28,332 nucleotides of DNA from a virus: positions 1 to 28,332 of the IMG/VR virus record IMGVR_UViG_3300000228_000020, one strand, 5' to 3'. Shown here one piece after another: positions 1,812 through 22,730 of the stretch. Below the pieces are notes generated by a model. It ran no database searches. It had not been told where the DNA came from and saw only the letters and a program-made list of their open reading frames with translations. Both the position numbers and the translations under genes were made by a program. Every line of letters starts with the position of its first letter. Within the stretch, counting starts at the first letter, position 1.

Positions 1812-1812
1812 A

Positions 1813-2333: not shown

Positions 2334-2335
2334 TT

Positions 2336-2524: not shown

Positions 2525-2525
2525 A

Positions 2526-2711: not shown

Positions 2712-2720
2712 ATTTAAAAT

Positions 2721-2777
2721 AAATGCACACATTTTCCGAAAATGTAATAAAACGGAAAATGTGTGCATTTTTTATTT
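2721..2777. terminator. Bidirectional intrinsic terminator between convergent gene blocks
   Basis: A perfect 18-bp stem (2721-2738 with 2753-2770) encloses a 14-base loop. On the + strand the 3' arm runs into a T-rich tail (ATTTTTTATTT). On the - strand the complement of the A-rich bases before 2721 also gives a T-rich tail. It sits between the last + strand gene (stop at 2711) and the last - strand gene (stop at 2796), exactly where terminators for two converging transcripts are expected. The stretch 2712-2795 holds nothing else recognisable. The loop contains a second copy of GAAAATGT, so a smaller competing hairpin can form. Confidence 0.85.
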
Positions 2778-2795
2778 CCTCACTTCTACTTTTTT

Positions 2796-5700
2796 TTATT
2801 CTTCATCTACAGATTTATTTTGCTCTTTATCATAATTTTCTCTGTCTATTTTAAATTCATCTCCAAGTTCTTCTTTAATTTCTTTATCAATCACATCTTG
2901 TTCTACTTCTGGTAATTCATCATATTCTACATTATTTTCTGTTTCATATTCATCAAGAAGTTCTTGTATTTTAACCTGTTTAGCTTCTTTTAATTCTTTT
3001 TTATCAACTTTAAAATCAGAGTTAAATATACCATCCAAACCTTCTGTTTTATCCCATTCAGTAAGCATAGAGTTTTCAAAACCAAATCTGTATGTACTAT
3101 CATAATGAATAGCATCTCTAAACAATGCAGGTATAAACATTGCTGCTGCTGCATTATATAATTTATTTTGTCCTTGTCTTGGTCCTTTTTGTATTTCTGC
3201 TGTAGGAGTTCTTAAAGCAATACCTAACTTTATTATACTTTTTAATTGTCCTTCTATACCACCTTCTGAACCAGCTTTCCATATAGCAGCAGGGTCTGTA
3301 CCAAATGAAGATTCATTGAAAGTACCAGTAATCATATTTTCAAGAAAATTATAGGTATGATTTCCTTCTGCTCTTCTTAATTTTTGTGCTTCATATTTAG
3401 CTCTTTGCTCTGTTCCTTCTTCTCCTTTAGGTTCATCATCTTCATTATCTTTTAAAAATGCTTGAATACCTATCTTAACTAACATTAATATTGCTAAATG
3501 TTGCATATTTCTACCCATTGCTCTCAAATCTTTCTTTTCTTGTTCAGTAAGATTTAATTCTGATTTAAACTCAACAGGTTTAATTAATTCTTTACCAAAT
3601 ATGGTATTTATTGGCATTTCAGCTAAAGCCACAGGATTAATCATTTTTAACCAATACATAGCTTGTTGTACCATAGCAATAGGTTCAGTATTATCTACTA
3701 AAGTTGTATTTCTATTTTTATGTGCTATATATTTAGTATAACCAAATCCAAATCCTAATGAAGCAACAAAACCAGCAATCAAAATAGGAGAAGCTGTTAC
3801 CATTCCTAATGCTCCTGTAGTAGCTAACATTAAACCAGCAGCAACAGAAGTTTTCTTATTTAATAAACTTGATAACATAAAACCTGTTTCTACCTCACCA
3901 GTAAGAACATTTTTTTGTTGGTATTTCCATCTTGCTCCTATATATTCTGGAATCCAAGTTTTGTAAGTCATTAATGGTTTTGTAAATAAACTACCTTTAA
4001 TCCTTGTAACACCTTCTTTAGTATAATCACCAATCATACTATTATTCATAGCTCTAACATTCAATTTCCAATCAGAAATATCTTTAGAGGTCATAGTAAT
4101 CAAATGTTCTCTATTTGTTGGTGTATCAAATTCAGGTTTTAATTCTAAAACTCCATTATTGTTTATATAAGGTATAAAATCACTTCCATTAAATAAAGGA
4201 TATTTAGCTGGAGTACCATCAGGATTTTTTTCTGTAGCATGTTCTATTTCAACATCCATAGCCATAGCTAATATACCTTTTGCTTGATTTCGATATTCTA
4301 CTTTTTCAGTAATGAACATTGGTTGCATCCAACCTGCTCTATTTTTTATTTCAGCTTCTGCTTTTTGTAATTCATTAGTTCCTGTTTCTACAATACTTAA
4401 TTTTTCTATAAATAATTTAGCTGTTTCCCATTTTTGTTTATAAGTAGGATTTACATGTCTTATTATACCTAAATCAACAAAATGCTGAACAGGGTAAATA
4501 TTACCTCTTTGCCAAAATATACCATCTCTATTTAATGTAGTAATAAAACCTTGTTTATAGTTATTTACTCCAGCAAGTAAATTATATCCTAAACCAACTT
4601 TTACTCTTAATTTATTAACTATATTATCAAATAAAGCACTAATCATATAGTCTTTACCTAATAATTCTATTCTTTGATGTAATGCCGCTTTTTCAATATT
4701 TAATTGTTCAACTTTTTTAGGTGAAGTAGTTTGTGCAATTTCATTTTCAAGTTGTTTTATTCTCTCAATTGCTGAATCATATATTACTTTTTCTTCTTTG
4801 TTGAAATTTTTATAAAATATTTTACCTACAACAGGAGCATTGAAATGTTCTTTATTTAAAGATTTTCTCAATATATTACTTATGTTATTTACTCCTCCTG
4901 GATGGTCTTTTTGATTTTTATTTAAAATAACTTTTTCATAAAAGAAGTCTTGTCTTTTTATTTCACTTTCTCTTACTTCATCTTTTTTCTGATGCCAACC
5001 ATTTTCTTTTGTTAAAATGTCAGCACTTTTCATTCTATAAATGTTTGTTTCATTTTTAGATGCTGTTCTTGCTTTATGGTCTGCTGATAACTCTAATAAT
5101 CCTTTTATTACTGCTGGTAAGTTCAAAGATTGTTGCTCCATATTCTTTATTTTAGAGAATATTTTCAAATCTCCTGCTCCAAATATACCATTAGTAGAAT
5201 CTAAATTATCTAAAAACTCAACTGAATCTTTCATTCCTGTTACTGCAAGTATCTTATCTTGTTGTTCTAAAGATAAAGAGTTCCAATGAATAACTGTATT
5301 ATCCATTAAAGTCTTACCTATTATATTAGATACATCAGTTTTAAGTAATGCAAAATCTTTACCTACCTCACTTTCTATTGTTTTTATTTGATGTGCAAGT
5401 TGTACATATTCTGATTCATTATGTTTATAATTCTTTGCACTAAATACCTCTTTAACAATATTATCATTTAATGCTCTTAATAATGATTTTAATCCAAACC
5501 AATTTTCTTGACTGAATGCATTTTTTAATATTTTTTTATAGGAAGCATTCATTACTTGTTCAGTAATCCCTTCTTTAAAACTCAAAATAGAATTATATTT
5601 TACTTTCAAGTCAGAATCAATAAGATTTTCATTTATCAATTCTACACCAGATTTCATTCTTTTCCAGAAATCATACATTATAGGATTGTTTTCAATATCT

Positions 5701-7622
5701 TTAAAATTTTCATCAAAGAAACCTGTATTTAATCCTAAATTATTTTGTGCTTTTGGTATAAAACCATTGAATTTAATATAAGAAGGTTTCTCATCTTTTT
5801 GAGTACCATAATTAAGTTCTACCATACCAGAATTACCAGCATAGAAAGAATCAAGGAAAGCCAATGGACTAATTCTTTGAAGGGAATTTTCTATACTATC
5901 TTTTGCAGCACCAGATAATTGAGCTTCATCAGTTACATTTTCATCATCTAATTTTGCTTGTATAATTAATCCTGCTTCATTTAAGTATTTATCTAATAGA
6001 TTTCTTTGATTTTCAATAGCTTTATCATACTCTTCTTGCCCAATTTTAGCAATTATTTCTTGCTTATAATTATCAGCTTCTTGAGTAGTTCCTCTTTTAA
6101 AACTATCATAAATAGGGTCATCAAATATATCATGTAATAAAGTAAAATTTAAAAATTCTACCTTATCATTCAAATCATTAAATTTATTCTTTAATAACCT
6201 TTCTACTTCTGCCCAATCTTTTTGACTTCTTGCTTGATATAAATCTTCTTGATATTTCTTTTGAAGATTGTATATAGTATTTTCATAAGTTTTTGAAAAC
6301 TTACTAATTAATTCTGGTTCAGCAACCTTATCTTTTCTATATAACCAATTATAATCAAATACTGTTTTCTTTCTGAATGTAAAGAATTTACCAAGTCTTT
6401 TTAATTCTTCTTCAATAGCAGGAAGACCATTATTGATACTTTCAATTATAGGTTGAATTTTATTATTCTGAAATTGTTTTTCTCTCTTATATTCCAATAT
6501 AATTAACTGGTCAATAATGTTATTTTCTGATAATAAATTAGTACCTTGAGTAAAAAAGTAAGATTCAATTTTATTTATATCCTGTAATTTCTTTAATAGT
6601 TCTTCTTTAATTTCTTCTAATGTCAATCCTGGATATAATTTAGATAAGTTATCTTCATTTTTTTCCAATAGTTGAAGAAAGATGTCATCTACAGTTTCAT
6701 TTATTCTATTTTTAGTTTTCTCTAAATGTTTCTCTATATAATCAATTATATCTTGAACTTCTTTTTCAAACTCTTGTTTACTATTTAAAGCAAAAATATC
6801 AGTATCTTTTGCTTCTGATTTTTTAGTTCTTTCTAAATAATCAAACATTGTTTTTGCTAAAAATACATTATCTAATGTAGGATTAGAAAGTAATTCATTT
6901 ATTGTTTGAATATCTTTTTCAAAAAAATCTCTAATCAATGATACTTTATCAATATTACTATTAAAGTCTTTAATATCTTTTTCTAAAGAATCTTTAATTA
7001 AATTGAATTTAGCTATTTTTTTAGTTATTTCAACTGAATCATGTAATCTTTTATCATTATATAATCTTGTAATAGTTTTATCTACATTGATAAGTAATTT
7101 TCTTTTATGTTCAAGAACATCATTGAAGTTAGGTTGTATAACAGTTTTTGATATAGGAGTATTTGTACTGTTACTTGGCATATATTCAAAATCATCCTCT
7201 GAAAATGTTGGAGGTAAATCTCTCATTTCATCATATTCATTCTGAATTTTTCTACCTTCATTTCTTGAATCTTTTTCAGCTTTTGCTCTTGCTTCATTAT
7301 AAGCATCTTGCTCATTTTGATTAGACATTGCTTTTGCCAATTTTATAGTAGGATGAATATTAAATTCTATCCCTTCCTTTGTTTGATTAAATGATACTAC
7401 TTCTCCATACAATTTAGAATTATATTGAGTATTATATTTATTTTTTTGATATTGTACTCTTCCAAACAAAGGATTTTTAGCAGTAGTAGGTGTATTACTA
7501 TCATAAGGTATAAAACCTGCTAATCTATCTTGAAATTTTGTAAATTTAATAGATTTAAAATCTTCCATTAATCCAAGTTTTATCTTTTCTTGAATATCTT
7601 GAATTTCTACTATACAAGCCAT
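2796..7622 (-). CDS. Giant virion-associated protein of the crAss-like RNA polymerase cluster, 1608 residues
   Basis: Last gene of the - strand operon. The protein is mostly helical and highly charged, with predicted coiled coils over about residues 150-500 (many EK-rich stretches). At about 1259-1299 a long hydrophobic, glycine/alanine-rich stretch (SVAAGLMLATTGALGMVTAS, then PILIAGFVASLGFGFGY) could form one or two membrane helices; a shorter hydrophobic stretch lies near 1385 (LAILMLVKIGIQAF). The C-terminus is very acidic. A conserved-looking block at about 1070-1240 contains VEYRNQ and WIPEYIGARW. Crassvirales genomes carry a set of two or three giant proteins beside the tail genes, several of them virion components that enter the host. 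By position and type this is a member of that set, perhaps helping translocation across the inner membrane. No catalytic motif is recognised. The ATG at 7622 follows an A/T-rich 29-base gap. Confidence 0.65.
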   Translation of the reverse strand: MACIVEIQDIQEKIKLGLMEDFKSIKFTKFQDRLAGFIPYDSNTPTTAKNPLFGRVQYQKNKYNTQYNSKLYGEVVSFNQTKEGIEFNIHPTIKLAKAMSNQNEQDAYNEARAKAEKDSRNEGRKIQNEYDEMRDLPPTFSEDDFEYMPSNSTNTPISKTVIQPNFNDVLEHKRKLLINVDKTITRLYNDKRLHDSVEITKKIAKFNLIKDSLEKDIKDFNSNIDKVSLIRDFFEKDIQTINELLSNPTLDNVFLAKTMFDYLERTKKSEAKDTDIFALNSKQEFEKEVQDIIDYIEKHLEKTKNRINETVDDIFLQLLEKNEDNLSKLYPGLTLEEIKEELLKKLQDINKIESYFFTQGTNLLSENNIIDQLIILEYKREKQFQNNKIQPIIESINNGLPAIEEELKRLGKFFTFRKKTVFDYNWLYRKDKVAEPELISKFSKTYENTIYNLQKKYQEDLYQARSQKDWAEVERLLKNKFNDLNDKVEFLNFTLLHDIFDDPIYDSFKRGTTQEADNYKQEIIAKIGQEEYDKAIENQRNLLDKYLNEAGLIIQAKLDDENVTDEAQLSGAAKDSIENSLQRISPLAFLDSFYAGNSGMVELNYGTQKDEKPSYIKFNGFIPKAQNNLGLNTGFFDENFKDIENNPIMYDFWKRMKSGVELINENLIDSDLKVKYNSILSFKEGITEQVMNASYKKILKNAFSQENWFGLKSLLRALNDNIVKEVFSAKNYKHNESEYVQLAHQIKTIESEVGKDFALLKTDVSNIIGKTLMDNTVIHWNSLSLEQQDKILAVTGMKDSVEFLDNLDSTNGIFGAGDLKIFSKIKNMEQQSLNLPAVIKGLLELSADHKARTASKNETNIYRMKSADILTKENGWHQKKDEVRESEIKRQDFFYEKVILNKNQKDHPGGVNNISNILRKSLNKEHFNAPVVGKIFYKNFNKEEKVIYDSAIERIKQLENEIAQTTSPKKVEQLNIEKAALHQRIELLGKDYMISALFDNIVNKLRVKVGLGYNLLAGVNNYKQGFITTLNRDGIFWQRGNIYPVQHFVDLGIIRHVNPTYKQKWETAKLFIEKLSIVETGTNELQKAEAEIKNRAGWMQPMFITEKVEYRNQAKGILAMAMDVEIEHATEKNPDGTPAKYPLFNGSDFIPYINNNGVLELKPEFDTPTNREHLITMTSKDISDWKLNVRAMNNSMIGDYTKEGVTRIKGSLFTKPLMTYKTWIPEYIGARWKYQQKNVLTGEVETGFMLSSLLNKKTSVAAGLMLATTGALGMVTASPILIAGFVASLGFGFGYTKYIAHKNRNTTLVDNTEPIAMVQQAMYWLKMINPVALAEMPINTIFGKELIKPVEFKSELNLTEQEKKDLRAMGRNMQHLAILMLVKIGIQAFLKDNEDDEPKGEEGTEQRAKYEAQKLRRAEGNHTYNFLENMITGTFNESSFGTDPAAIWKAGSEGGIEGQLKSIIKLGIALRTPTAEIQKGPRQGQNKLYNAAAAMFIPALFRDAIHYDSTYRFGFENSMLTEWDKTEGLDGIFNSDFKVDKKELKEAKQVKIQELLDEYETENNVEYDELPEVEQDVIDKEIKEELGDEFKIDRENYDKEQNKSVDEE

Positions 7623-7651: not shown

Positions 7652-10600
7652 TTAGTTACAATTTTTTATTTCTGGTAATCTAAAATTATTTTCAATCATA
7701 TCATTTTCAGCAAAATCATTATCTCCTATTGTAAATTGAACTTGATTTTCATCAGATAATGGAGCATATTGAGTAGGAGTAGCTTGAGTTTTTTCCATCT
7801 CTAAATATACATCATTAGGTATATTATCTACACTTTCAACTTCTCTAAAATTGTTTTCCATTCTAATAAAATGCATTGAAGCCATGATAGATTCTTTTGC
7901 CATACTATTATTTATTAAACCTGGATATATAGAATCTAATAAATTTAAAATAGCATCAGATAATTTATCCCATAAAGATTTATCAGTAGCTTTATATTGT
8001 ATTTTATTCATCTCTTCTTGAAACATTGGAGATGTTAAAGCAACTGTGATAAACTCTTTAATATTAGTACCAGCATAAATTAAACCTAATTCTCTTTCTG
8101 TGTATCTTGCATCAGAAGGTAGTGTTTGACCAGTTTTTTTAGCATTATCAATAAGAGCTTTTTTCTCTATCAATGCTGTTATTTCTGGTTGTAATAACTT
8201 TCTAAATTCATTAAATACTACTACAAGATTTGTAACATGTTTAGGAGCATCAGCTTTAATATTACCACCTTTATCAAAATGTTTAGACAATTCATCAACT
8301 GTAACAGTATGAATAACTTCATGTAATAAAGTCATAGCTGCTTTATCATCTGATACATTTAATGTATGAGTAGGATTTAACATAACATTTTTACTTCCTT
8401 GTGTTGTTCTTCCTGCTGCATCTAAATTATAATCTAATATTAATTTATCATTTCCAATTATAGGTAATAACCATTTAGCAGCTTCTGTAATATGAGCATA
8501 TTCTGGTGTTAATTCAGTATTTGCTACTTGATTCAATAAGTCTTTTACAGAAGTATTTTCATTAACTTTAAATGTTTTTTTGCTTATATTAGCTACATTA
8601 TCATCTGTTGCAATGTTAGGTGTTACATTCTTTTTTAAATTTTTAATAGAAGAAACATTATCATTACCAAATTCATATTCACTAATACCCATATTACCTA
8701 ATGTATCAATTTTTTGATATAAACCATTACCAACATGTTCAAATAAAGAAACTGATACAGGCATATTTCTCTTGTTATCTTTTACAGATAACAAGGTAGG
8801 ATATTTTTTATCTTCTACATTATACTCAAAACTATTTTCTTTTTTATTCTTAACATTTTTAAAGTTTGCTTTCGGAGCTTTACTTGGATTATGTTGGAAA
8901 TATTGTTTAGTAAATGTACTCATAGAATCTTCTTTTGTACCTAAAACTTTACTGAATAAGTCAATAGAACTATTATGTTTAGTATTAAACATTTGCAATT
9001 TTTTATTTGCTACCATAAAAGTTTCTCCTTGATATTGACCCATACTTTCAAGCATTTCAATAGGAACAAATTTTGCAAATTCAGTTGCTTTTTGAATACC
9101 TCCTTGTAAGAGAGAATAAGCTACTAAATCTTCTGCTAAATTTACTGTAGAATAAGGTTGTCCATTTCTAAAAGGTAATTGTTTATTAGCCATAACCAAT
9201 TCAGGTATAGCATTATATAAATTTTCCTCATCTAAATTATCAGTAGCTGTGTTATTATATTTAATTAATGATAACTCATCTTCTCCTAATCCTGTTTCAT
9301 ATTGGAAACTTTTTAATAAAGCATTTTGAGATACTTCTTTTATTCCTTTTTTAAATTGTTTATCATCATTTTTTGATAAATCTTTTAAATATGTAGATAA
9401 TGAAGTATTGTTTTCATCATCAATGAATAATTCATATCTTTTAGCTTTAGGGTCAATGTTAAATACATTATTACCTTTTCTTGAATAGATTAATTTTTTA
9501 ATGTTTTCAACAATTTCTTCAAAGTTTTCAATAATAGCATTATCAGAAATATTTTCTTCTTTACCTTGTATTTTCAAAATTTCTTTTACAACATCATTTA
9601 TCGATTTGTCTTGATATGGAAAGAAATCTCTATATAAAGTATTACCTAAATGTAAACCATTTATAACAATTTGTCCTTGTGGTGTTCTTGGTGTAACATA
9701 ATAGTTTCCAATCATATAACCACCAGTTTGATTTTCAGATGTATCAGAATAATCTCCAATTAATAAATGAGCATTAGTAATAATTCCATTATCAGGAAGT
9801 TTTTTTAATCCTTCATATTTTAATTGAGATTCAATCATAGATTTACCAAGCATATTAGTATTGATTACTTTTTGAACTTTAGCAACTCTTTTAGCTTCTT
9901 CTTCTAATGTTAAATATGTCTGTAATGCAGCAAATTGAACTTCATTATCTTTACCATTATCTTTAATTCCAGCCAATAGATTATCTCCAGTAAGTTTATA
10001 TCCTCCTGGTTCAGTTAGCATATTACCAACTAAAGGGTCATTATTTACTTTATTTGTATAGAAATTACCTTCTTTGTAAAAGTTTTCTCCATTAGAATAT
10101 TTACTAACTAATTCATTAATTAACTCTTCATCTTTAATAAATTCTCCTAAAATACCTTTACTTTCTTTTCTTCTTTGATTTAATTCTTTAATAATTGGTT
10201 GAGATAACAATAAATAAGAAATAGAATTACCATTTTCATCTTTACCAAATCCTCTTAAAGCTGTATTAGCATCTACATTGATAGTAAATTCATCTACACC
10301 TACTCTACCAAGAACCTGTTCTTTTTCATTATCAGTACCTGTGTTAATTTTTTCATCAAATGCTTCTGAAATATTTCTTTGATGTTTTTCTCTCCATTCT
10401 TTCAATTTAGATTCAGATAAACCTATTGGTTCTATATGTTGTATAGCACCAAGTTTTCCATCACTAATGAAATGTCCAATTTGAATAGTTTTTGGATTAC
10501 CATCTTTATCTTGAATATAAATATCTTCTCCTTGATGCTGTTGCAATAAAGCATTGAATGTACTATAATTAGCATATACACCAATAGCAACCTTACCAAT

Positions 10601-13600
10601 AGCTCCTAAATTCATTTTACTTTTTTGGTAAGAATTTGTAAGCATTGTAAAGTTCAATTGGTCAGCTTCATACATTTCATTAGCTTTTAAATCAGATAAT
10701 GTGGCATCTTTAGCCATATATTCAGCAATCATTTTATTTCTGTAACCAGCTTCATTTAATTTTTCTAATTGTTCAGCTTGACTTTTTGCAAAATCAATTG
10801 ACAATACACTATTAATTTTGTTTTGAATATCTAAATTAGGGTTATTAAATATAGCCAAGTGAGATTTAATAAATTCATTTTCAGCCAATTTTCTCTTTAA
10901 TTGCAATTCTAATCTATTTATTTTTTCCACAATATCGACTTGAGGTAACAAAAGAGTTTCTAAAGATTCTTCATCTAATAAATTTCCTTTACCTGTAATG
11001 AAACTTCTAAATAACTCATTAGCAAAATTACTTTTTGCAGAAGCACTTGTATTTTCAAGATTAAATTCTTCTATTTTATTAGTTAAACTTCTTGTAATAT
11101 TCTCTATATCAGAATTTTCTAATACTTTAATTTTACCATCATTAGTCATAATATGATTTAATTGATAAGCAGATTCTTTATCAATATCATAATCAAGACC
11201 TTTTTGTTTAGTAAAGTTTTTAGGTACTATCATCAAATCTCCTACTTCTGGAGGTAATATACCAGCAATTTCAACAGATGAACCTGACTTATGAGAAGAT
11301 GTTGGTATTCTAAAACTAAAATTATTAAATAAAGCAGGGTCTATCATACCTTCTTTCAAGGTTAATGTACCATTTTCTCTTCTTGTTAAATATTTACCTT
11401 CTTTTCCATTAAATCCTTCAAATAAATCAATAAGTTCTTTCTTATCATTTTTAAATTTAGATGGTATAAATACTTGAGCTTTATGAAATACTATTCCATT
11501 TTCATCTGTTGAAGTATGAGTTCCTTGTAATTCTTTACCATTATATGAATCTAAATAGATTATTCTTGATTTATCTACACCTTCAAGATTTTCTTTCATT
11601 CTAAAACCACTTTCAGAACCAGCAACAAAACCATTACCAGGCATTTTATGCTTCATAATTTTATTAGTAATGATTGAATTTAATAATGATTCATATCTAT
11701 TACTATCAGATGATAACCACAAAGGAGTTTTAAATTCATAGTAAAATCCAGCAGCAGCAGCTAATTTTTCAATTTTCAATCCTGCTAATGATTTAACACT
11801 ATAACCTCTTGAAGTAGCTTCTTTTATCAATAAATCTTGTAAGTTTTTTACAAAGTTTTGTTCATTTTTAATTTGACCATTTGTATCTAAACCTAAATCT
11901 AAAAATAATTCTTGTTTTTTACTATCTACTATATCACTAAATGCTTTATTAAAATGTTGATATAACTCTTTACCAGTAAGTTCTTTACCATCTATAACAA
12001 AACCTTCTTTGTCAATTACACCATCACCAAATAACAATTTAAAGAATTGTGTACCCATAGAAACTTTATCATCTTGATGTTTATCAGATTTAAAAGGTAC
12101 ATCTTGTTGTATTCTAAAATTATCTCTGTTTAATACTAACATATTAGCATTTACATCATCAGCATTATAATCTTTTATAGTTGATAATGAATTTATATCA
12201 AATGGTTTTACAGTTTTTATTGTAGCACCTACCTTATTAGCTGTTTGAAAAGAAGCTCTGGTAAATCTACCTGTGTTAGTTTCTAACTCTTCCATTTTCA
12301 ATCTTAAAGCATCTAATTTAGTACCAGCAGTTAATTGTGGTATCAAAGGGAAAGCAGAAGATTTAATATAAACTACTCTATTAACATCCTGATTTACATT
12401 AGTATAAGTTCCTGTATGAACAGGTTTAATTGGTTGAAATACTAATTTCAATTCTTCTTTTGTTAAATAACCTTTTTCTCCTTCTGTTAATAACTTATTA
12501 GTAATTACTTTAAATTCTTCATCAGAAATTCTACCTATTCTATGTAAAATAGATATGTGTTCTGTTGCTGTTGAATATTCTTGAGCATCAGTAGATTCAA
12601 TATCAAAATAAGCATCTATAGCTGGAAATTTATTAGCTAAAGATTTTCTAATATCAGATAATGTTTTATTGATAGCACTATATCTAACAGGATTTAAACT
12701 TAAAATTCCTTGTTCATGTTTGTTTAGTAATTCAGCAGCTTTTTTATATTTATCTAATAAAGGTTGAGCTTCATCCAATCCTTTTTGACCATAGTAATTT
12801 TTAATTAAGTATTCTGAATTTTCACTAATATCAACAGAATCCTCAAGAAAAATTTGATTATATTTTTCTCCATAAGAATTAGCAATTTTACTACCAGGAG
12901 CAATAAGTAAAGCTAACCTTTTACCTAAATTCACACCAATTTCTTTATTAATAGAAACATAAGTTTTATCATCTTTTATATCAAAAGGATTAACTGACTT
13001 ACCTTCTTCTTTGTATAATTTATCTTTACTATAATTAGCAATATCTCCAGCAAATACTTTAAATACTTCTGAATTAGTAATCATATTATTTAATACAAAA
13101 TCATAAACAGCTAAATCATAATCAGTTGAAGGATTTTTACCTTCTTCTTTGAAATAATTGTTATCAAACATTTTAGAATATGAGTTTCCTTCTTTATTTA
13201 CTTCTAAATAATTACTCCACATATCTTTTTTATGTTCTACTTCTTTTTTAATAACACCTTCAATAGCATCTTCAAAAGTAGATTGATATTTTTCAATAGC
13301 TTCATCTATTGTAATACCAGTTAATGCTAACTTGTTTACAATATTTAATCCATCAGAATCTTTTAAAGTGTTCATTATAGGTAAGAAATGAAAAAGAGTT
13401 GCTCCTTTATCATAATCTTTTATATTTGTTGCTTTAACTTCTGTATGAAATTTAACTATTCTTTTTAGTTCTGGTAACACCAATTGATTAAATAATAAAG
13501 TTTTAACTGTTGGACCAATACCTTGAACTACACCTTCTTCTGATAAGTTAAACATACCATCTATTTTACCATCTTTCAAGAAATCAAAAATAGCAGTTGT

Positions 13601-16600
13601 CATATACATACCAGTAGTTTTATCTGACATAGTAGGAAATAACATATTAGCCATTCTCATTGATATACCTTCAAATTTAGTTCCTTTAGGTAATTTATCA
13701 ATCTTTCTATCTTGTAAACCAGTAATACCAGCCATATCATAATCAATATCACTTAAATCAGTAATACTTGCTCTATATGGTTGTTCTCCTTTTTCTTTAA
13801 ATGCTGTAATAGAAGTATGTGAAATTTCAAACATACTTTTAAAAGTAGGTTCATTTTTCAACATATCTAAAATTATAGAATTTTCAGATAATGATAATGA
13901 TAATAAGTCATCAACTAAATTGTTACCATCTTCTGATATACTTGTTTTTAAATTTTGAACCATATCAGTTACATATTTGGTAGGAACTAAAGTTGATATG
14001 TTCTTACCAGAATCTCTAAAAGAAAGAGTTATTAAAGTTGGGTTGTATTTTGCTTCTATTAAACTTAATGCTTTTGTAACACCAGCTAAATCATTAAAAA
14101 TACTTTTTTTACTATCAAAGCTGAAATCAGCAGGATTAGCTATTGCTTTCTCTAACCAATTTTTTAATGGAATAAATAGACCACCAGTATTTTGACTATA
14201 TAATACATTGAAAGAATTTTGTTTTCCAGCATTAAAAATACCTTCATTATAAATTTGATTCCATGATGTATCTTCAAAAGTATAACCTAATTTAGATAAC
14301 CATTTTCTCAAATCATTTTCTGGAACTTTTCTGTAATCTTGTCTATCCCATTTATTAAACTCATCTAATAATGATTGAGCATATTGAACATTTAAAGATT
14401 GATTTTTATTATATAAACCTGATGATTTATTCTCATTCTTCCAATTTTTAGCTATAATTCTTGTAGCTGCATTTGCATTAGTATTATATATTTTTAATGA
14501 AACACCATTGTTTTTAGTATTTTCATACATAGCAAATTTAGAAGACAAAGTATGTCTAACAAAATTATAAACCAATTCGTTTTTAATTTGTTGGTCAGCA
14601 CTTTCTAATTTAGCTAAAACACTTTTTACAAAAGCATTATTACTTTGTTTCATTTTAGCTATAATAGTATTGTAATCAGATTTAACTTCTGAACCAAGAG
14701 CCAATACTTTACTTAATTCATTATATACATCATTAAATGACATATATAAAGGAATGCCTAAATAACCTTTTTGAGCAACTCCTTTACTATCAAATACAGG
14801 AATTTCAGATAAGAATCTTCTTAATCTATAAGATGCTTTAGCTTTACCTGATTCTTCAATAGAATCTTTACTATAATCTTTAACACTCAATTCAACATCA
14901 TCTTGTTCAATATCATTCTCTTCTTTTTCATTTAGAGTAAGTTGAGTTTGTTTTTGAATATCAGTAAATGCTTTATTATATATACCTTCATAATTCTTTT
15001 TAATATCAGCAATATTCTTTAAAGTTTGATTATATGCTTCAACATAATGATTTAAAGCACCATTAGTATTATCTTGATTTTTTAGTTCAGATAACATTGA
15101 TAATACTTGTTTTTCTATCTTATTAAGATGTAAGTTTAATTCAGATTTAATATCATTTTGTATTGCTTCTTTTGATACTTTATTTTTATAACCAAAACTT
15201 ACTTTATTACCAATTTTATGGTATATAAATTGTCTTACATTTTTTTCTTGAGTTATAGATAAATCTCCACTAACATTGAAAATATTAGCTAATTTATCTG
15301 TATTAGCAATCATATCATTACTTACATCAAAATCATTAGGGTCAATACCTAAATCATTTAAAAATTCAGTATGTTTTTCTAAACTGAATGGTACAGATGT
15401 TTTAAGCTGTTCTACAATTACATTAGCAGCTTCTTGTCTTGCATCATTATTTTTAGTTGCTGGTTTCTCCACTTCCTTATAATCTACTGTGATAATTGGT
15501 TGTATCATAGTAACATAAGTAGGTTTTTTTCCAGTATCATCAATATCAAAAGATTTGATATTTGTAAGCAAATTATTTTTTAAATAAGTGTCATAAGTTT
15601 GATTTAAAGCAGTAACTCCTTCTCTTGTAATATGAACTATACTTTTTACATTTCTGTTATTTAAAAGTTTGTTATTGGTATGCTGTGAAACATTATTCAT
15701 AACATTCTCATCAAACAAACCTTTTTTATATTGACCTAAATTATCTCCAGCAATATTATCTTGAAAGAAAGTTTTTATAAATTGAACTATTTCATTTCCA
15801 TTTTCAATATCAAGACCCATTTGAGTATGAATATCTTTCTGAATAGATTTAGCTTTTTCATAAGTCATTTCATATATAGTACCTTTTAAATGTATTGTCC
15901 AAGTTGCATCTTTTTTAAGAGCAAGGTGTGCAGCCATAGCAAATCTTGTTGTTTCTATTTGTTCATCAGAAACAACTCTACCTACAGGATAAGCTCTATA
16001 TGTAGGTACTAATTCCCCTTTATCATTTAATATTGTACCTATTCTTCTTACTTCCCAAGTATGACCTACACTATTAAAATCAAACTTTCCTTCATTACCA
16101 GATTTATCTTTATTTATGAGTTTTCCAGCATTGAAAATTTGATTACCCATATATAAGTCTTCTCCTATTTGTACTGTTACAACAGTTTGAGGATTAGCTT
16201 CTTGAAGAGTAATTTTTGGTTCTGTCATAGGTATTTCATAAAATATACCATCAGAAGGTTTATTGATTGTAACTTCTGTTAAACCATTGTTTATACTATT
16301 TCTTAAATTTTGAACATTTAATTTACCTTCATTAATATGATTCACCCATTCTTGAGTAGGTAAATTAGGATTACTTGAATCTCCAAAAGGATTACCTATA
16401 TTGAATGTATTATACCAATCAGTATCTTGAACATAAGCTAATGCTTTACCTTCTTTATTAGTATAGAATACAGGAACTTTGTTTCTAAATTCTTGTGTAT
16501 TTCTGAAATCAGCATTTTGTTTTTCTTTTTCAGATAACCATTTATCAAAAGTAATAGTTTGTGCTGTTCCTTGTGCATTTCTACCATTGGAAACAGTAAT

Positions 16601-19600
16601 TTGAGACCATAATGATTCAGGAGCAATTTGTACTCCTACTTTACTTCCAGAAGGATGTTTATCAGGGTCTAATAATTCTCTAAAATCAATCAAATCTCCA
16701 AATTTGTGATTCAATTCATTACCTATTGATTTTCTAACTAAAATACCATTTTCTATTACTTCAACATAAGCAATAGAAGAAAATCCTAATTTAGGAGTAA
16801 TTGTCAAAGTTCTTTTAGATTCAATTTCATTTACTGCTGTTTTTTGAATAGGAATGTTTTCTTCATCATAACCAACAGTAGTAACTTCTCTTTGAGCAAC
16901 TTCTTTTTTTATTTCTTCTACTTTTTCTTCTAATTCTACAAATGTATTGACTTCTTCAATAGGAACTTGTTGTTCAAACATTTGAGCCATTAATGAAGCA
17001 TTAGTACCTAATGAAGCCAATGGATTAAATAAATCCATATAAACTTGATTATAGTCATCTGCTTCAAGTCCATTTTGTTTCCAACCTTCTACATAACCAT
17101 CAAATAATTTTTTTAATTGTTCTTTATTATTTACAATTTCATCCAAATGAGACATATATTCTCTAAAGCTAATATTTCTGTTTAATAGATTTTTAACTTT
17201 AGTTACATCTTCTGATACAATCTTTTTAGCAACATTACTTTGTTGAGGTGTAAAAGATGATGTATTTCCAATCATATCATTGAAATCATCTGCTATAAAT
17301 ACAGGGTCATTGTTTATAGTTGTGGAATTGTCATCTAATGAAAAAACAGTTTCCATAGTTTGTAAATTACCAGCAACAGAAGAAGTGTGTTCTTCTTTAC
17401 CATCTTCATCTACAATTGTAATATATGGCTCATTTTCAGGAACAACTTCTCCAGCATCTATTTTTTCTTGTCTTTGAGCTGACAAGTCTTTTATAGATTT
17501 AGCTATTTTTTCTTTATGAACTTGCTCTTGTTTTACTTTAAGTTCTTGTAATTTTTGTTCTTTTAAATCATTAATAAAATCTTTATTTTCTCCAGTAATA
17601 TCTTTTTGTTTAAGTTTTTCAACTACACTTTCAATTAAAGCAGGAGTTTCTTGTAATTCATTTTGATAATTAAATTCTGCATTTTCAGAACCTTCTTGTT
17701 TTATTTGTTCTACAATAGAATTATAATCCTGTAAAATAGCTTTTTTTTCCTCCATTTTCTTTTGATATAGAGGATGAACTTGGTCATTATAATTTTTTAA
17801 TAATATACTTTGATTACTATTCAAAGTATCTTTTAACATTGTAGCATTTTTATGATTCTCTACAGCTAATAAGTTTTCTTTTTCTAATCTATCTAAAAAT
17901 GAATTGTATTTTTGTTGGTTTTCTTCATTTTCAAATTGTCTATCCAATAAAGTATCAATAGAATAATCTATTTTAATACCTTCTCTTGTTACAAAAGCAT
18001 CTATTTCTTCTTTAGCATCTTGCTTATTTTCAGCAATATGTTTATCTAATTCTTCAATAGTTTGCTTATTTGCTAATTTCTTTTCAGCTAAATTAAATAT
18101 TGTTCCAAAATTTTGTTTTTCTGAATGTGCATCATAAACTTGTTTTAATTCATCTATTCTCTTTTTAGCAAGTTGTATGTTCAATTTAGTTTCAGCAGAT
18201 ATTTCAGTATCAGGTTTCAATAACACTTTATCTAATGTTTCTTGAAAATTAGTTATTGTTCCTGTTCTTATAGCATGAGCAGCTAATCTTTCAAATTTTG
18301 TTTTTTCTAATTTATTAGCTTGTTCAGTTTTACCACTATCTCTTAATTTAGTTATCATAGCATCATATTCTAATGGGCTATATAAACTACCAGAAGTATT
18401 CATATTAATATGAGCAGCTAAATCTTCATCTGTTATTGATTTATCAATATTTTTATAGATTTGAGTAATTGCTTTCTTATCTAATCTATAACCATTTGCT
18501 CTCATTCCTACTCCTACACTACCCATAGCTCCTTTCATTATAAGAGTTTGAGCAATAATTCCTTCATAAAAATCATAAGCCTGGCTATCTTTAAAATCTA
18601 CTTCATTACCATGAGAATCATGTGAGAAATCTATCATTTGATTTAATTGTTTCTCATAACTTTGTCCATAAGTAGGTATAGCTGCTACAAACATTTCTTC
18701 TAAAACTTCTCCTCCTAAACCATCAAGCATTTTCATTTTAGGAGTATGGGCAATTCTTTGTATAGATAATTTTCCTAATGCTACATTATTTATAGCATTT
18801 GTACCTCCTTTATATATTTTATTTAGATTTGTTATACCTTTTCCTAATTTAGAAGCATCCATGAAATTATCTACTTTAGATAAACCTTTACTTACAAATT
18901 TATTAGATTTAGCTAATTTACCTAATGGTCCAAGTGCTTCTCCAACAAATCTTTCAGCAAATGCTTCTTTTAAATATTCTGAATAACCAAATAAAGCTGA
19001 TTCAACTTTACTATGTGGTTGTATTAAAGATAATTCATCAGCTAAAGAATCTTTCATTCCTTGTAATCCTTCTATTTTAGCTAAATTTTCTTTTGTTTTA
19101 TTTTTAGATAATTTATTTATTTGACTATCTATTTGAATATTCTTTAAATCAAAATCTTTTTTATATTTGTTATAGATTGCTTGACTTGTTAAATAAATTT
19201 CTTTACCATTTTCATCATGTGATATTTCTACATTACCAATTTGGTCTTTTGCATAATTTGCATAGGTCATAGGATTAATAGTTCCTTGTACAGCTAAACT
19301 TGCTGTACCTCCTGCTAATTCTCCTCCTATCATTTTTAAAGCCATTTTTTTACCACCTGTTTTCAAAGCAGTTTGTAATGATAAATTTATAGCTTCTCTT
19401 CCTACAAATTTACCAACTGATGTAGATATAGGACCTCCTATTGGAGCAGTAGCTAAAAATTGTTCCACCATAACAGCAGATGTAGCAATACCTTTACCTG
19501 TTTCATAACCATCACCTTTACTTAATTCTCTTGCTTCTATATTTTGTTTATGTCCAATAGATGCTATAACAGCTTCTTCGCTATCAGTAAGTGTTTCAGA

Positions 19601-20635
19601 AGGAACATAACCTTTTTTTACATTACCATTTTTATCCGTATTCTTTGTTATTTCATTTACTATTCTATTTTGTTTTTCAATAATAGGTACACTCATAATG
19701 TCTTTAGCTATACTATGTAAACCTAAACTATATAAATCCTTTCTTTGTGTACTAAAACCTGCTATAAAATTGTTAAATACTCCTTCATCTCCTTCTCTAT
19801 AATTTTTTAAAGTTTCAATAGTTTCTTCATAATTTTTTTTAGCAATATTATAATTTATCTCCTCTTGGTATGGAGTATAATTATCTTCTGATGTATTTTT
19901 TTGATAACCAGTAAGTCTATCTGGAACAGATGCTTTTGGACCAACACTTCCATCTTTATGATATACTATTTGTGCATCATCTTTTAATTTAGCATCTCTA
20001 TATTTTTTAGCTTTCTCTTCAATTAATTTTTGTTTAATTTCAAGGTCTTTTTCTATTTCAAATGTTATAGGTAACATTTTATTTTTTTTATAATTTTGTA
20101 AAGTGTTATATTCTGATTCCTCTTTGGCTGTCCAACCAGTTAAAGGTTTATTATTCAAATATAAACCAACCATAGATACTGATGCACCAGGCATCATAGA
20201 TGTTTCAAATACAGAAGATATTCCATTTTTTAATTTACTCCAAATAGTTTTGTTTTCTAAATTATGAATTTTTTCATCTACATCTAAAAATTCAATAGCT
20301 TTTTCTTCCCCTACTTTATTTTTTAAAGAAGCAAGAACACCATTATCATTAAGAGCATTTAATTTTTCTTCTCTTTTTAACTGTTCTTGTCTATGTTTTT
20401 CATCTTCTCTTAATTGAGAAGCAGTAGGGGTGTTAAGATTTTTAAAAAAATCTTGAACTGCTCCTTCATGTGCTTTTTTATTTTGTTCAGCATTACCTTC
20501 TCCTATTATAGAACCTGCTTTTTGTACAGCACTTTCTTTGTGTTGTACATTAGGATTTTCAACATTTTGAGCTTGTTTAAAAATATCAGCAAATGATTTA
20601 CTTGCTTGTTTTTTAATGTTTAATTCTCTTGACAT
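7652..20635 (-). CDS. Giant polyprotein with crAss-like virion RNA polymerase and zincin-like metallopeptidase domain, 4327 residues
   Basis: One unbroken frame of nearly 13 kb. Residues 1-330 are charged and helical; about 375-470 is a glycine/alanine-rich hydrophobic region that may meet membrane. Long coiled-coil-like stretches follow (about 780-1150). The polymerase lies at about 2300-3450. SFQTANKVGA is near 2795 and KHKMPGNGFVAGS near 2995. RIPTSSHKSG starts at 3109 and DYDID spans 3148-3152. The RxPT-to-DxDxD spacing of about 39 residues resembles cellular beta-prime (RAPT to DFDGD). The three aspartates would bind catalytic magnesium; DYDID corresponds to DFDID of the phi14:2 polymerase. 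Near the C-terminus, HEVIH (4105-4109) with E4194 (NIKEF) fits a gluzincin-like site. Known homologues are virion-packaged and transcribe early genes in the host. The length far exceeds the roughly 2200-residue phi14:2 enzyme, indicating fusion. It starts 4 bases after the 696-residue gene. Confidence 0.88.
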   Translation of the reverse strand: MSRELNIKKQASKSFADIFKQAQNVENPNVQHKESAVQKAGSIIGEGNAEQNKKAHEGAVQDFFKNLNTPTASQLREDEKHRQEQLKREEKLNALNDNGVLASLKNKVGEEKAIEFLDVDEKIHNLENKTIWSKLKNGISSVFETSMMPGASVSMVGLYLNNKPLTGWTAKEESEYNTLQNYKKNKMLPITFEIEKDLEIKQKLIEEKAKKYRDAKLKDDAQIVYHKDGSVGPKASVPDRLTGYQKNTSEDNYTPYQEEINYNIAKKNYEETIETLKNYREGDEGVFNNFIAGFSTQRKDLYSLGLHSIAKDIMSVPIIEKQNRIVNEITKNTDKNGNVKKGYVPSETLTDSEEAVIASIGHKQNIEARELSKGDGYETGKGIATSAVMVEQFLATAPIGGPISTSVGKFVGREAINLSLQTALKTGGKKMALKMIGGELAGGTASLAVQGTINPMTYANYAKDQIGNVEISHDENGKEIYLTSQAIYNKYKKDFDLKNIQIDSQINKLSKNKTKENLAKIEGLQGMKDSLADELSLIQPHSKVESALFGYSEYLKEAFAERFVGEALGPLGKLAKSNKFVSKGLSKVDNFMDASKLGKGITNLNKIYKGGTNAINNVALGKLSIQRIAHTPKMKMLDGLGGEVLEEMFVAAIPTYGQSYEKQLNQMIDFSHDSHGNEVDFKDSQAYDFYEGIIAQTLIMKGAMGSVGVGMRANGYRLDKKAITQIYKNIDKSITDEDLAAHINMNTSGSLYSPLEYDAMITKLRDSGKTEQANKLEKTKFERLAAHAIRTGTITNFQETLDKVLLKPDTEISAETKLNIQLAKKRIDELKQVYDAHSEKQNFGTIFNLAEKKLANKQTIEELDKHIAENKQDAKEEIDAFVTREGIKIDYSIDTLLDRQFENEENQQKYNSFLDRLEKENLLAVENHKNATMLKDTLNSNQSILLKNYNDQVHPLYQKKMEEKKAILQDYNSIVEQIKQEGSENAEFNYQNELQETPALIESVVEKLKQKDITGENKDFINDLKEQKLQELKVKQEQVHKEKIAKSIKDLSAQRQEKIDAGEVVPENEPYITIVDEDGKEEHTSSVAGNLQTMETVFSLDDNSTTINNDPVFIADDFNDMIGNTSSFTPQQSNVAKKIVSEDVTKVKNLLNRNISFREYMSHLDEIVNNKEQLKKLFDGYVEGWKQNGLEADDYNQVYMDLFNPLASLGTNASLMAQMFEQQVPIEEVNTFVELEEKVEEIKKEVAQREVTTVGYDEENIPIQKTAVNEIESKRTLTITPKLGFSSIAYVEVIENGILVRKSIGNELNHKFGDLIDFRELLDPDKHPSGSKVGVQIAPESLWSQITVSNGRNAQGTAQTITFDKWLSEKEKQNADFRNTQEFRNKVPVFYTNKEGKALAYVQDTDWYNTFNIGNPFGDSSNPNLPTQEWVNHINEGKLNVQNLRNSINNGLTEVTINKPSDGIFYEIPMTEPKITLQEANPQTVVTVQIGEDLYMGNQIFNAGKLINKDKSGNEGKFDFNSVGHTWEVRRIGTILNDKGELVPTYRAYPVGRVVSDEQIETTRFAMAAHLALKKDATWTIHLKGTIYEMTYEKAKSIQKDIHTQMGLDIENGNEIVQFIKTFFQDNIAGDNLGQYKKGLFDENVMNNVSQHTNNKLLNNRNVKSIVHITREGVTALNQTYDTYLKNNLLTNIKSFDIDDTGKKPTYVTMIQPIITVDYKEVEKPATKNNDARQEAANVIVEQLKTSVPFSLEKHTEFLNDLGIDPNDFDVSNDMIANTDKLANIFNVSGDLSITQEKNVRQFIYHKIGNKVSFGYKNKVSKEAIQNDIKSELNLHLNKIEKQVLSMLSELKNQDNTNGALNHYVEAYNQTLKNIADIKKNYEGIYNKAFTDIQKQTQLTLNEKEENDIEQDDVELSVKDYSKDSIEESGKAKASYRLRRFLSEIPVFDSKGVAQKGYLGIPLYMSFNDVYNELSKVLALGSEVKSDYNTIIAKMKQSNNAFVKSVLAKLESADQQIKNELVYNFVRHTLSSKFAMYENTKNNGVSLKIYNTNANAATRIIAKNWKNENKSSGLYNKNQSLNVQYAQSLLDEFNKWDRQDYRKVPENDLRKWLSKLGYTFEDTSWNQIYNEGIFNAGKQNSFNVLYSQNTGGLFIPLKNWLEKAIANPADFSFDSKKSIFNDLAGVTKALSLIEAKYNPTLITLSFRDSGKNISTLVPTKYVTDMVQNLKTSISEDGNNLVDDLLSLSLSENSIILDMLKNEPTFKSMFEISHTSITAFKEKGEQPYRASITDLSDIDYDMAGITGLQDRKIDKLPKGTKFEGISMRMANMLFPTMSDKTTGMYMTTAIFDFLKDGKIDGMFNLSEEGVVQGIGPTVKTLLFNQLVLPELKRIVKFHTEVKATNIKDYDKGATLFHFLPIMNTLKDSDGLNIVNKLALTGITIDEAIEKYQSTFEDAIEGVIKKEVEHKKDMWSNYLEVNKEGNSYSKMFDNNYFKEEGKNPSTDYDLAVYDFVLNNMITNSEVFKVFAGDIANYSKDKLYKEEGKSVNPFDIKDDKTYVSINKEIGVNLGKRLALLIAPGSKIANSYGEKYNQIFLEDSVDISENSEYLIKNYYGQKGLDEAQPLLDKYKKAAELLNKHEQGILSLNPVRYSAINKTLSDIRKSLANKFPAIDAYFDIESTDAQEYSTATEHISILHRIGRISDEEFKVITNKLLTEGEKGYLTKEELKLVFQPIKPVHTGTYTNVNQDVNRVVYIKSSAFPLIPQLTAGTKLDALRLKMEELETNTGRFTRASFQTANKVGATIKTVKPFDINSLSTIKDYNADDVNANMLVLNRDNFRIQQDVPFKSDKHQDDKVSMGTQFFKLLFGDGVIDKEGFVIDGKELTGKELYQHFNKAFSDIVDSKKQELFLDLGLDTNGQIKNEQNFVKNLQDLLIKEATSRGYSVKSLAGLKIEKLAAAAGFYYEFKTPLWLSSDSNRYESLLNSIITNKIMKHKMPGNGFVAGSESGFRMKENLEGVDKSRIIYLDSYNGKELQGTHTSTDENGIVFHKAQVFIPSKFKNDKKELIDLFEGFNGKEGKYLTRRENGTLTLKEGMIDPALFNNFSFRIPTSSHKSGSSVEIAGILPPEVGDLMIVPKNFTKQKGLDYDIDKESAYQLNHIMTNDGKIKVLENSDIENITRSLTNKIEEFNLENTSASAKSNFANELFRSFITGKGNLLDEESLETLLLPQVDIVEKINRLELQLKRKLAENEFIKSHLAIFNNPNLDIQNKINSVLSIDFAKSQAEQLEKLNEAGYRNKMIAEYMAKDATLSDLKANEMYEADQLNFTMLTNSYQKSKMNLGAIGKVAIGVYANYSTFNALLQQHQGEDIYIQDKDGNPKTIQIGHFISDGKLGAIQHIEPIGLSESKLKEWREKHQRNISEAFDEKINTGTDNEKEQVLGRVGVDEFTINVDANTALRGFGKDENGNSISYLLLSQPIIKELNQRRKESKGILGEFIKDEELINELVSKYSNGENFYKEGNFYTNKVNNDPLVGNMLTEPGGYKLTGDNLLAGIKDNGKDNEVQFAALQTYLTLEEEAKRVAKVQKVINTNMLGKSMIESQLKYEGLKKLPDNGIITNAHLLIGDYSDTSENQTGGYMIGNYYVTPRTPQGQIVINGLHLGNTLYRDFFPYQDKSINDVVKEILKIQGKEENISDNAIIENFEEIVENIKKLIYSRKGNNVFNIDPKAKRYELFIDDENNTSLSTYLKDLSKNDDKQFKKGIKEVSQNALLKSFQYETGLGEDELSLIKYNNTATDNLDEENLYNAIPELVMANKQLPFRNGQPYSTVNLAEDLVAYSLLQGGIQKATEFAKFVPIEMLESMGQYQGETFMVANKKLQMFNTKHNSSIDLFSKVLGTKEDSMSTFTKQYFQHNPSKAPKANFKNVKNKKENSFEYNVEDKKYPTLLSVKDNKRNMPVSVSLFEHVGNGLYQKIDTLGNMGISEYEFGNDNVSSIKNLKKNVTPNIATDDNVANISKKTFKVNENTSVKDLLNQVANTELTPEYAHITEAAKWLLPIIGNDKLILDYNLDAAGRTTQGSKNVMLNPTHTLNVSDDKAAMTLLHEVIHTVTVDELSKHFDKGGNIKADAPKHVTNLVVVFNEFRKLLQPEITALIEKKALIDNAKKTGQTLPSDARYTERELGLIYAGTNIKEFITVALTSPMFQEEMNKIQYKATDKSLWDKLSDAILNLLDSIYPGLINNSMAKESIMASMHFIRMENNFREVESVDNIPNDVYLEMEKTQATPTQYAPLSDENQVQFTIGDNDFAENDMIENNFRLPEIKNCN
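8771..8795 (-). other. Perfect 10-bp hairpin inside the giant gene
   Basis: CTTGTTATCT (8771-8780) and AGATAACAAG (8786-8795) form a perfect inverted repeat with a 5-base loop. It lies within codons for residues about 3947-3956, in a stretch of charged residues (SVKDNKRN) between the polymerase-containing part and the peptidase domain. It could affect translation speed or mRNA processing at a domain boundary, but in AT-rich DNA of this length a chance origin is possible. Confidence 0.3.
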
Positions 20636-20639
20636 AAGA

Positions 20640-22730
20640 TTATTGATTTAATAAATTACTTAATACATCTAAACCTTCTGGAGTATTAGCATTTGTTATT
20701 ATTTGTTGTCCATTATGATTTAATACTATTGTTCCTTTTGGATATCTTCTTCCAGCAGCATCAACATATTCTTTACCATAATATACAGCTTTTCCTTCTT
20801 TATTATTTACCAATTGCACATTTACTGCTGTTGTTCTATTTACAAATGATTTAGCTTTTAATTCTCCTGGATTATTTGCAGCATATTGCTCTACTTCTGG
20901 TATTTTTATATTATTAATTTTTACTTTAGAAGTATTACCATTTATAGTTATATCAGAATAATAATCTAATTTACCATCTGCTCCATATTGCCCAGTAGCT
21001 TTTATAGTTGTACCTAATTTATAATTCATAGTCTTACCATCAGCAGTTTTTATATCAAAACTTATATCATTATTTTCTTCATCTTTACTTCCAGTTTTAT
21101 AAGATTGAGATTTGTTTAATTCTGATGCTGTTATAATACCTAAATTATATAGTTCATTCGGAGTGTACTGTTTTTTAGATAAATTTAATAATTTTGGTTC
21201 TTTACCTGTTTTATCTAACTCATATTTAGGGTTTAAAATTTTTGTACCTTGTGGAAATTCAAAAGGTACTACATTTTGCATCATACTTTCTCTAAAATTT
21301 TTGTTATAACCATCAATTACTTTTTGGTCTGGTATAAATTGTCTCAAAGATAAATTATGTTCTGCTTCATTATTTATATTTTTGTCTCGCAAAAATACAT
21401 TATATTTTTGGGCTATACCGCTATAAACATTAATTTCTTTACCATTAACTACTTTTTTCTCTGTAGTCATAATGATATTTCCATATTTGTCAATAGCTTT
21501 TGCTCTTTCTGATGCAGGTAAACTGTTTAAAAATTCTTTTTCTGTAGCTTTTTGTACAGCAACATCTATTCTTGCATCTTTTATTCTCCTAATAGCATTA
21601 ATATTTTCTATAGTTTGTGGTACATTTCTAAAATCACCTGTTTCTATCTGTGCTTTAATTTTAGGGTCTTTTATTGTACTAAATAATATTTGTTTATTAT
21701 TTTTTATTTGTGTAAATGCCGTATTTTTATTCATTACAGCTTCCACAGCACTATTACCTACACTATTAGGTATAGTTTCCCCTTTAATTTCTTCTAATTC
21801 TGTAACAGGTGGTTTATCTCTATCATGTATTCTTTGTTCATTATTAAAACCTCTTTGCTGTAATTCATAAGGATTAGCTGTAAGATTATTTCCAGAATTA
21901 GTCTCTTTAAATTTATTTGTATCAACAAAAGATTCTATTCCTGTTTCTAATAATTTATTTGGGTCTTCATATCCTTCTACACCATATTGTTGTCTTTGCA
22001 CTAAAGCATTTTTTATACTTGGTGTAGCATCAATATAAGATATAGCAGCTTCTTTTAATTTTTCTGGTGAAATAGCTTTCCAACCACTACTTGTTTCTTC
22101 TAACCATTGTCCTGTATTTTTTTCAAATTTAGTTTGATTACCATCAGCTTTTATATATTTTCCTATATTTTCATTTAAAATATCAGGTAAATTTCCTAAA
22201 GCTAAAGCATCTTCTGTTTGAAATTCATTATATTTTCCAGTATCTTTATTATAACCAGTTTCTTTAAATTCTGCTAATTTTGCAGCTTTTAATTTAGCTA
22301 TTAAATCAGGAGTATATTCTCCTTTTTTATCATTTTTAATTTTATCATCTAAATCTGCTGACCAAGTATCATATTTTTTTTTATTTTCTATTATTTTAGC
22401 AGCAGGTCCTACTGTCCAATCTTGTAAAATATCTCTACCTATTTGTACTCTATCAGCTTCTGTTTTTTGATAGTTTAATGGATTTGATTTTATAGCATTA
22501 ATTTGTGTATCAATTCTATCTTGATATTCACTTATTAATTTTTTTACAGCAGGGTCATCTTGTTTTAAACCTTGTAATTTTAATTTATCAAGATTAGCTT
22601 TTAAACCATCTACTTCTGTATCAATTTCCTTATCTTTGTTTTGAAGTACCTGTGCCATTAGTTGATGAGGTGCTTCAAACATTTTGTTATCTACAAATTT
22701 AGCATCTGATGTTTGATAAAATCTTCCCAT
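20640..22730 (-). CDS. Putative virion (cargo or tail) protein of crAss-like phage, 696 residues
   Basis: No catalytic or binding motif is recognised. Residues 1-110 are helical and charged (HQLMAQVLQNKDKEIDTEVD, then LKANLDKLKLQGLKQDDPAV). The middle is mixed and lysine/asparagine-rich. The C-terminus (about 590-696) is predicted beta-rich (DGKLDYYSDITINGNTSKVK, then AVYYGKEYVDAAGRRYPKGT). There is no signal peptide or membrane segment. The gene lies between two other long - strand genes with gaps of 3 and 4 bases, directly before the RNA polymerase gene. In crAss-like genomes this place is taken by structural or packaged 'cargo' proteins, which is the basis for the call. An assembly chaperone or internal head protein would fit equally well. 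Confidence 0.55.
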   Translation of the reverse strand: MGRFYQTSDAKFVDNKMFEAPHQLMAQVLQNKDKEIDTEVDGLKANLDKLKLQGLKQDDPAVKKLISEYQDRIDTQINAIKSNPLNYQKTEADRVQIGRDILQDWTVGPAAKIIENKKKYDTWSADLDDKIKNDKKGEYTPDLIAKLKAAKLAEFKETGYNKDTGKYNEFQTEDALALGNLPDILNENIGKYIKADGNQTKFEKNTGQWLEETSSGWKAISPEKLKEAAISYIDATPSIKNALVQRQQYGVEGYEDPNKLLETGIESFVDTNKFKETNSGNNLTANPYELQQRGFNNEQRIHDRDKPPVTELEEIKGETIPNSVGNSAVEAVMNKNTAFTQIKNNKQILFSTIKDPKIKAQIETGDFRNVPQTIENINAIRRIKDARIDVAVQKATEKEFLNSLPASERAKAIDKYGNIIMTTEKKVVNGKEINVYSGIAQKYNVFLRDKNINNEAEHNLSLRQFIPDQKVIDGYNKNFRESMMQNVVPFEFPQGTKILNPKYELDKTGKEPKLLNLSKKQYTPNELYNLGIITASELNKSQSYKTGSKDEENNDISFDIKTADGKTMNYKLGTTIKATGQYGADGKLDYYSDITINGNTSKVKINNIKIPEVEQYAANNPGELKAKSFVNRTTAVNVQLVNNKEGKAVYYGKEYVDAAGRRYPKGTIVLNHNGQQIITNANTPEGLDVLSNLLNQ

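Follow-up and report, generated by a model that had tools for sequence, protein, structure and literature searches.

Giant polymerases of the kind described here are already known. Virion RNA polymerases (RNAPs) of up to ~6,000 aa with shifting protein boundaries have been reported for crAss-like phages, among whose relatives Fpv3 has already been counted (PMC10136315; PMC7886860). These two papers do not spell out the domain map, fusion joint, travelling zincin or repeated fusion described below, and it is the movable borders and the travelling zincin that we consider the interesting part. Fpv1, Fpv3 and Fpv20 (Fipvunavirus) carry the same gene as the locus analysed here, ~96% identical over the RNAP half and with the same neighbours. 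The N-terminal ~1,200 residues of their protein diverge more (38-98% per 200-residue block), and the 4,401-aa Fpv1 product (gp33) is annotated only as 'virion structural protein' (on an unstated basis), not as a polymerase.

In phi14:2, the homologous RNAP (gp66; PDB entry 6VR4) is a separate protein of 2,180 aa, close to the figure of about 2200 residues in the initial annotation of our sequence, and together with g067 and g065 it presents the same domain order over three adjacent genes, all three products of which were found by MS/MS proteomics according to database record notes. This arrangement differs from the fused one in that the three genes are separate and in the place of the zincin domain: the fused chain has it C-terminal to the RNAP, whereas phi14:2 and its relatives have it at the front of the gene downstream of the RNAP (g065 in phi14:2, at its N-end). 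Phage crAss001 likewise has a homologous RNAP (gp50), a gp49-like partner and a protein (gp47) related to the g067 family, although its genes are separate and convergent, and no zincin was detected after the RNAP. The crAss001 virion cargo includes gp47, gp49 and gp50, and is thought to be extruded partly unfolded (PMC10172136). The annotated expectation that other crAss-like phages split this content over several genes thus holds for both phi14:2 and crAss001.

Outside the crAss-like phages, the N4-type virion RNAP (Schitoviridae) similarly joins an N-terminal delivery part, an RNAP and a zincin-bearing C-terminal part in one ejected chain (PMC12633501, PMC5512222). This 3,500-aa protein is pictured as passing like beads on a string, with no known cutting (PMC12633501), and N4-like RNAPs were reported to be always fused to a zincin (PMC5512222). 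Its polymerase is nevertheless an unrelated single-subunit T7-type enzyme. The gp96 protein of P23-45 also combines a two-barrel RNAP and a metallopeptidase domain in one giant virion chain (PMC10770324), but its RNAP is at the N-end and fused to the tape measure protein of a long-tailed phage. It measures 5,002 aa and is full-size in virions, with no known cutting (PMC10770324).

The window analysed here (28,332 nucleotides, positions 1 to 28,332 of IMG/VR record IMGVR_UViG_3300000228_000020, itself 37,090 bases long) carries an RNAP, a g067-like part and a zincin-like domain in a single open reading frame (ORF). The features of this ORF and of its neighbours are as follows:

7652-20635, minus strand: giant ORF of 4,327 aa (fused N-half, virion RNA polymerase and zincin)
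15461-20635, minus strand: N-half, residues 1-1725, counterpart of phi14:2 g067 / crAss001 gp47 (cargo, RNAP-associated), by profile comparison
15476-17176, minus strand: N2 domain, residues 1154-1720, best-conserved piece of the N-half, by profiles and model
15392-15460, minus strand: linker at the fusion joint, residues 1726-1748, by low pLDDT and the gene border in split relatives
8636-15391, minus strand: crAss-like virion RNA polymerase, residues ~1749-4000 (C-terminal limit approximate), by homology and model
10286-13738, minus strand: modelled catalytic region, residues 2300-3450, by AlphaFold2 and Foldseek
11300-11311, minus strand: RIPT, residues 3109-3112, conserved stretch directly before the active-site motif, with invariant R and P
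11180-11194, minus strand: catalytic DYDID motif, residues 3148-3152, with invariant G-x-D-x-D-x-D columns
7865-8386, minus strand: zincin-like domain, residues 4084-4257, by motif and profiles
8309-8323, minus strand: HEVIH zinc motif, residues 4105-4109 (putative third ligand E4194 at 8054-8056)
2796-7622, minus strand: 1,608-aa RNAP-associated protein, homologue by profiles of crAss001 gp49 / phi14:2 g065 without the zincin of g065
20640-22730, minus strand: 696-aa protein in the cargo-2 position (phi14:2 g068 / crAss001 gp46), by weak homology (g068 20.8%, E 1e-3)
22734-25181, minus strand: 815-aa protein in the cargo-1 position (crAss001 gp45), by position only, with no profile match
25193-28321, minus strand: likely muzzle protein (phi14:2 g071 / crAss001 gp44; family 75.8% to g071), probably truncated on its 5′ side where the window stops

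The giant ORF runs from ATG to stop with no internal stop, exactly as annotated except that its strand had not been given, and the motifs start at the residues listed, RIPT and DYDID both at their previously noted positions. Probing with 4.5 kb via megablast retrieved 29 records of phages of the fish pathogen Flavobacterium psychrophilum, matching at 95-97% identity, and translated searches found the frame open in these 29 records, with both halves covered. Moreover, the protein matches PHROG 16227, which is its own family (9,300 bits, profile length 4,401). The frame is therefore real, and the fused ORF also recurs in about 40 further viral contigs (many from IMG/VR) with identities down to ~35-50%. 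A Pfam search of the giant protein gave no significant match.

Residues ~1749-4000 are, by sequence homology and modelling, a crAss-like virion RNA polymerase. With phmmer against all PDB chains, the giant protein matched 6VR4 (E 1.3e-20) and nothing else below 0.1, and a 38-row profile of the RNAP region reached 6VR4 at E 2.7e-204, in line with homology of the catalytic region to the phi14:2 gp66 family. HHalign placed residues 1932-2617 on g066 230-1018, residues 2667-3157 on 946-1370 (99%, 8e-18) and residues 3347-3625 on crAss001 gp50 1691-1950 (60%). An AlphaFold2 model of residues 2300-3450 (pLDDT 87, pTM 0.82) matched 6vr4_A in Foldseek at E 1.1e-33, and no PDB chain other than 6VR4 appeared at E<0.001. 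This agrees with the annotated two-barrel RNAP, in that the model supports a single-chain double-psi barrel fold around RIPT and DxDxD insofar as the 6VR4 match shows it, the barrels being judged through that match and not strand by strand. The T7-like single-subunit fold of N4-type polymerases found no structural counterpart in this core, and P23-45 gp96 was not among the Foldseek matches listed. The catalytic motif is retained in nearly all complete relatives, and the polymerase adjoins the gp49/g065-type gene in a cargo/transcription block, as in phi14:2.

The N-half, ahead of the polymerase, has its counterpart in g067, which is a gene of its own in phi14:2 (crAss001 gp47), as profile comparisons via intermediate relatives indicate. 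Taken by themselves, the N-halves of the window's close cluster gave only a weak 42% against g067, so the link goes through those intermediates. Direct hhalign of the giant's N-half as a small profile against g067/gp47 likewise gave no match, deeper profiles being needed. A profile of fused-ORF N-halves matched a g067-family profile that had been built without fused ORFs (99.1%, E 1e-18), the g067-family HMM recognized the N-ends of four fused relatives (L043, L046, L053 and L059) at 1e-24 to 1e-37, and the g067 family in turn matched crAss001 gp47 (97.8%). Within the N-half, the N2 domain is present in 46-47 ORFs, nearly all of them fused, and aligned with the C-end of the g067 family at 67%. 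Its model is confident for most of residues 1280-1720 (pLDDT ~90 across most of the domain). The N2 fold had no match in the PDB, and beyond the N2 family itself the matches in BFVD were all weak, one of them being a crAss-like phage protein.

The membrane-like N-terminus suggested initially did not hold up as a transmembrane helix: no 19-residue segment of the whole giant protein or of 12 fused relatives attained a Kyte-Doolittle mean of 1.6, ruling out such a helix at this threshold, and the N-terminal region appears amphipathic at most. As to the coiled-coil regions of the initial annotation, which remain putative, residues 800-1100 consist of ~50% EKQRDN, and the model contains long helices from residue 1131 onward.

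Between N2 and the RNAP, pLDDT drops below 50 at residues 1726-1748 (model residues 597-619), and this linker coincides with a gene border in L060, where N2 lies at the end of a frame of 1,554 codons, distinct from the RNAP gene and closing 5 nt ahead of it. The N and RNAP ORFs of L044 meet there too. They overlap by 20 nt (L044:7031-7050) and the profile is nearly gapless across them, so that L044 is doubtful as a split gene and is probably a fused gene with a sequencing error or frameshift.

The C-end of the giant protein carries a putative zincin metallopeptidase, its HExxH motif and downstream conserved Glu being those of a gluzincin/minigluzincin. The corresponding alignment columns (E346, H349 and E434) are invariant in 29 relatives. 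In the PDB, a profile of the region matched 9sfn_G, an internal virion protein, at 7.7e-6, 8vb2_A, a tetrameric ejection protein, at 2.6e-5, and projannalysin (4jix) at 0.005. The Pfam SprT-like family was matched by 12 of the 29 relatives (best 8e-5) and fell below gathering in the window. The peptidase-like C-terminal domain of the initial annotation thereby gains both a motif and profile matches. The domain was found in 58 ORFs, six of which do not have the full HExxH, including the fused L033, L068 and L079. Specifically, L033, L040 and L079 have the first zinc-binding His replaced (KExxH/EExxH), while the Glu, second His and downstream Glu are kept. Since some relatives have thus lost one zinc ligand, zincin catalysis would not be universal.

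Two relatives carry the zincin twice (L022:15895-21696 and L028:15745-21471), namely at the fused RNAP C-end and close to the start of the gene that follows. Because both copies are present, duplication and loss is a likely route of zincin movement, with these two loci as its likely intermediates. One member of the zincin-region alignment has a NADAR domain (Pfam E 1.6e-13). Judging by its odd sequence in that alignment, this member appears to be L050 (L050:13445-14968), in which the domain would sit between RNAP and zincin.

Among 61 non-redundant RNAPs, 44 are fused and 17 split, in a sample that was seeded from the giant protein and therefore favours fused forms. In the RNAP-core tree, the clade containing the window has 40 fused members out of 41, and another three fused forms (L083, L084 and L088) lie inside the phi14:2 clade. 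This implies at least two fused/split changes without the doubtful L044 and three with it, and a single fused clade was rejected (AU p 7e-11, on a quick tree with long branches and for a group picked after seeing the tree). As far as these sequences tell, fusion is the norm for one large clade, and a second clade acquired it separately. The annotated fusion into one protein is hence real, yet less singular than had been implied, being the usual state of a whole clade. The gp49-like part was inside the RNAP ORF in none of 65 matches and formed a separate ORF in all 65, so fusion does not reflect indiscriminate stop-codon loss. Throughout, the parts follow one another as N - RNAP - zincin - gp49-like, and only the gene borders shift. 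The fused ORFs of L083, L084 and L088 (3,891-4,398 aa) have an HEAxH near residue 1424-1542, close to the joint and placed as at the end of crAss001 gp47.

We consider it probable that the giant protein is one multidomain virion cargo chain that is threaded unfolded through the tail, refolds and transcribes early genes. Several copies would share the capsid with the gp49-like product of the adjacent gene, and at infection they would precede the DNA through portal and tail, partly unfolded and in beads-on-a-string fashion. Once refolded inside the cell, the two-barrel polymerase (with its DYDID motif) would transcribe early phage genes without host RNA polymerase. By analogy with crAss001, N4 and P23-45, we infer a delivered transcription machine, in which fusion would mainly fix the stoichiometry and joint delivery of parts already acting together. 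Gene borders could then move without harm, since the fused parts act together anyway. The zincin would probably act at entry, with envelope proteins, host proteins or the giant chain itself as its target. Polyvalent proteins (Iyer et al. 2017) unite several catalytic domains of unrelated kinds, often including a zincin, in a chain that is delivered; the giant protein has an RNAP and a putative zincin and may be of this type if it is indeed delivered.

Cleavage of this chain is possible but not needed, and the term 'polyprotein' is unproven. As a true polyprotein, the chain would be cut at the N2-RNAP and RNAP-zincin linkers by the zincin (in cis or from a neighbouring chain) or by another protease, during assembly or post-ejection, yielding separate proteins like those of phi14:2. 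We judge this unlikely, although a real chance must be allowed for it, given that the zincin sits in the same chain, that the linker at the joint is disordered, that split relatives produce the parts as separate proteins and that Iyer et al. propose zincin processing in N4-like RNAPs (PMC5512222). However, the joint linker is poorly conserved in sequence across relatives, and no conserved cleavage site was found at the N2-RNAP linker of the giant protein and its fused relatives. Moreover, the full zinc motif is missing from the six ORFs mentioned above, fused ones among them, phi14:2 keeps its zincin even though its parts are already separate, and P23-45 gp96 remains full size in virions (PMC10770324). 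We give little credence to the broader proposal that Crassvirales RNAP units are interchangeable between fused and split states because a travelling zincin processes the fused chain into the same mature parts. If zincin processing were true, this phage group would form a natural series, with separate genes at one end and a self-cleaving polyprotein for delivery at the other.

A free RNAP could also arise alongside the fused form from an internal translation start near residue 1775, where a Met lies just past the joint and recurs in 14 of the 44 fused relatives. The other 30 have no Met there, and no other conserved Met occurs near the joint, making such a start very improbable. That an assembly or sequencing error merely erased a stop codon between two genes might be imagined from the stop-start overlap of g067 and g066 in phi14:2, yet the recurrence of the fusion across the 29 phage records and dozens of divergent contigs excludes misassembly or sequencing error for the family and leaves this explanation virtually no probability.

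The dissection assigns known counterparts to the parts of a protein that ranks among the largest in phages, and places it among crAss-like phages in which the part order is kept while gene borders shift through at least two separate fused/split transitions. With N4 and P23-45, this makes a third virion polymerase lineage with a metallopeptidase in one chain, a recurrence that hints at a common requirement during delivery. Whether the chain is threaded whole or cut is directly testable, since closely related sister phages can be grown on cultured F. psychrophilum.

Finally, the order and relative strand of the surrounding block (cargo - giant - gp49-like) agree with phi14:2. The 1,608-aa gp49/g065 homologue (2796-7622) contains a hydrophobic segment at residues 1264-1282, with a similar placement in gp49 and g065, and this segment, rather than the giant protein, is the candidate for membrane contact. 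At the other side of this gene, positions 81-659 (plus strand) hold a gene that, from where it lies and how long it is, is presumed homologous to that for the MazG-like pyrophosphatase of Fpv1. It belongs to an oppositely oriented block of small genes.
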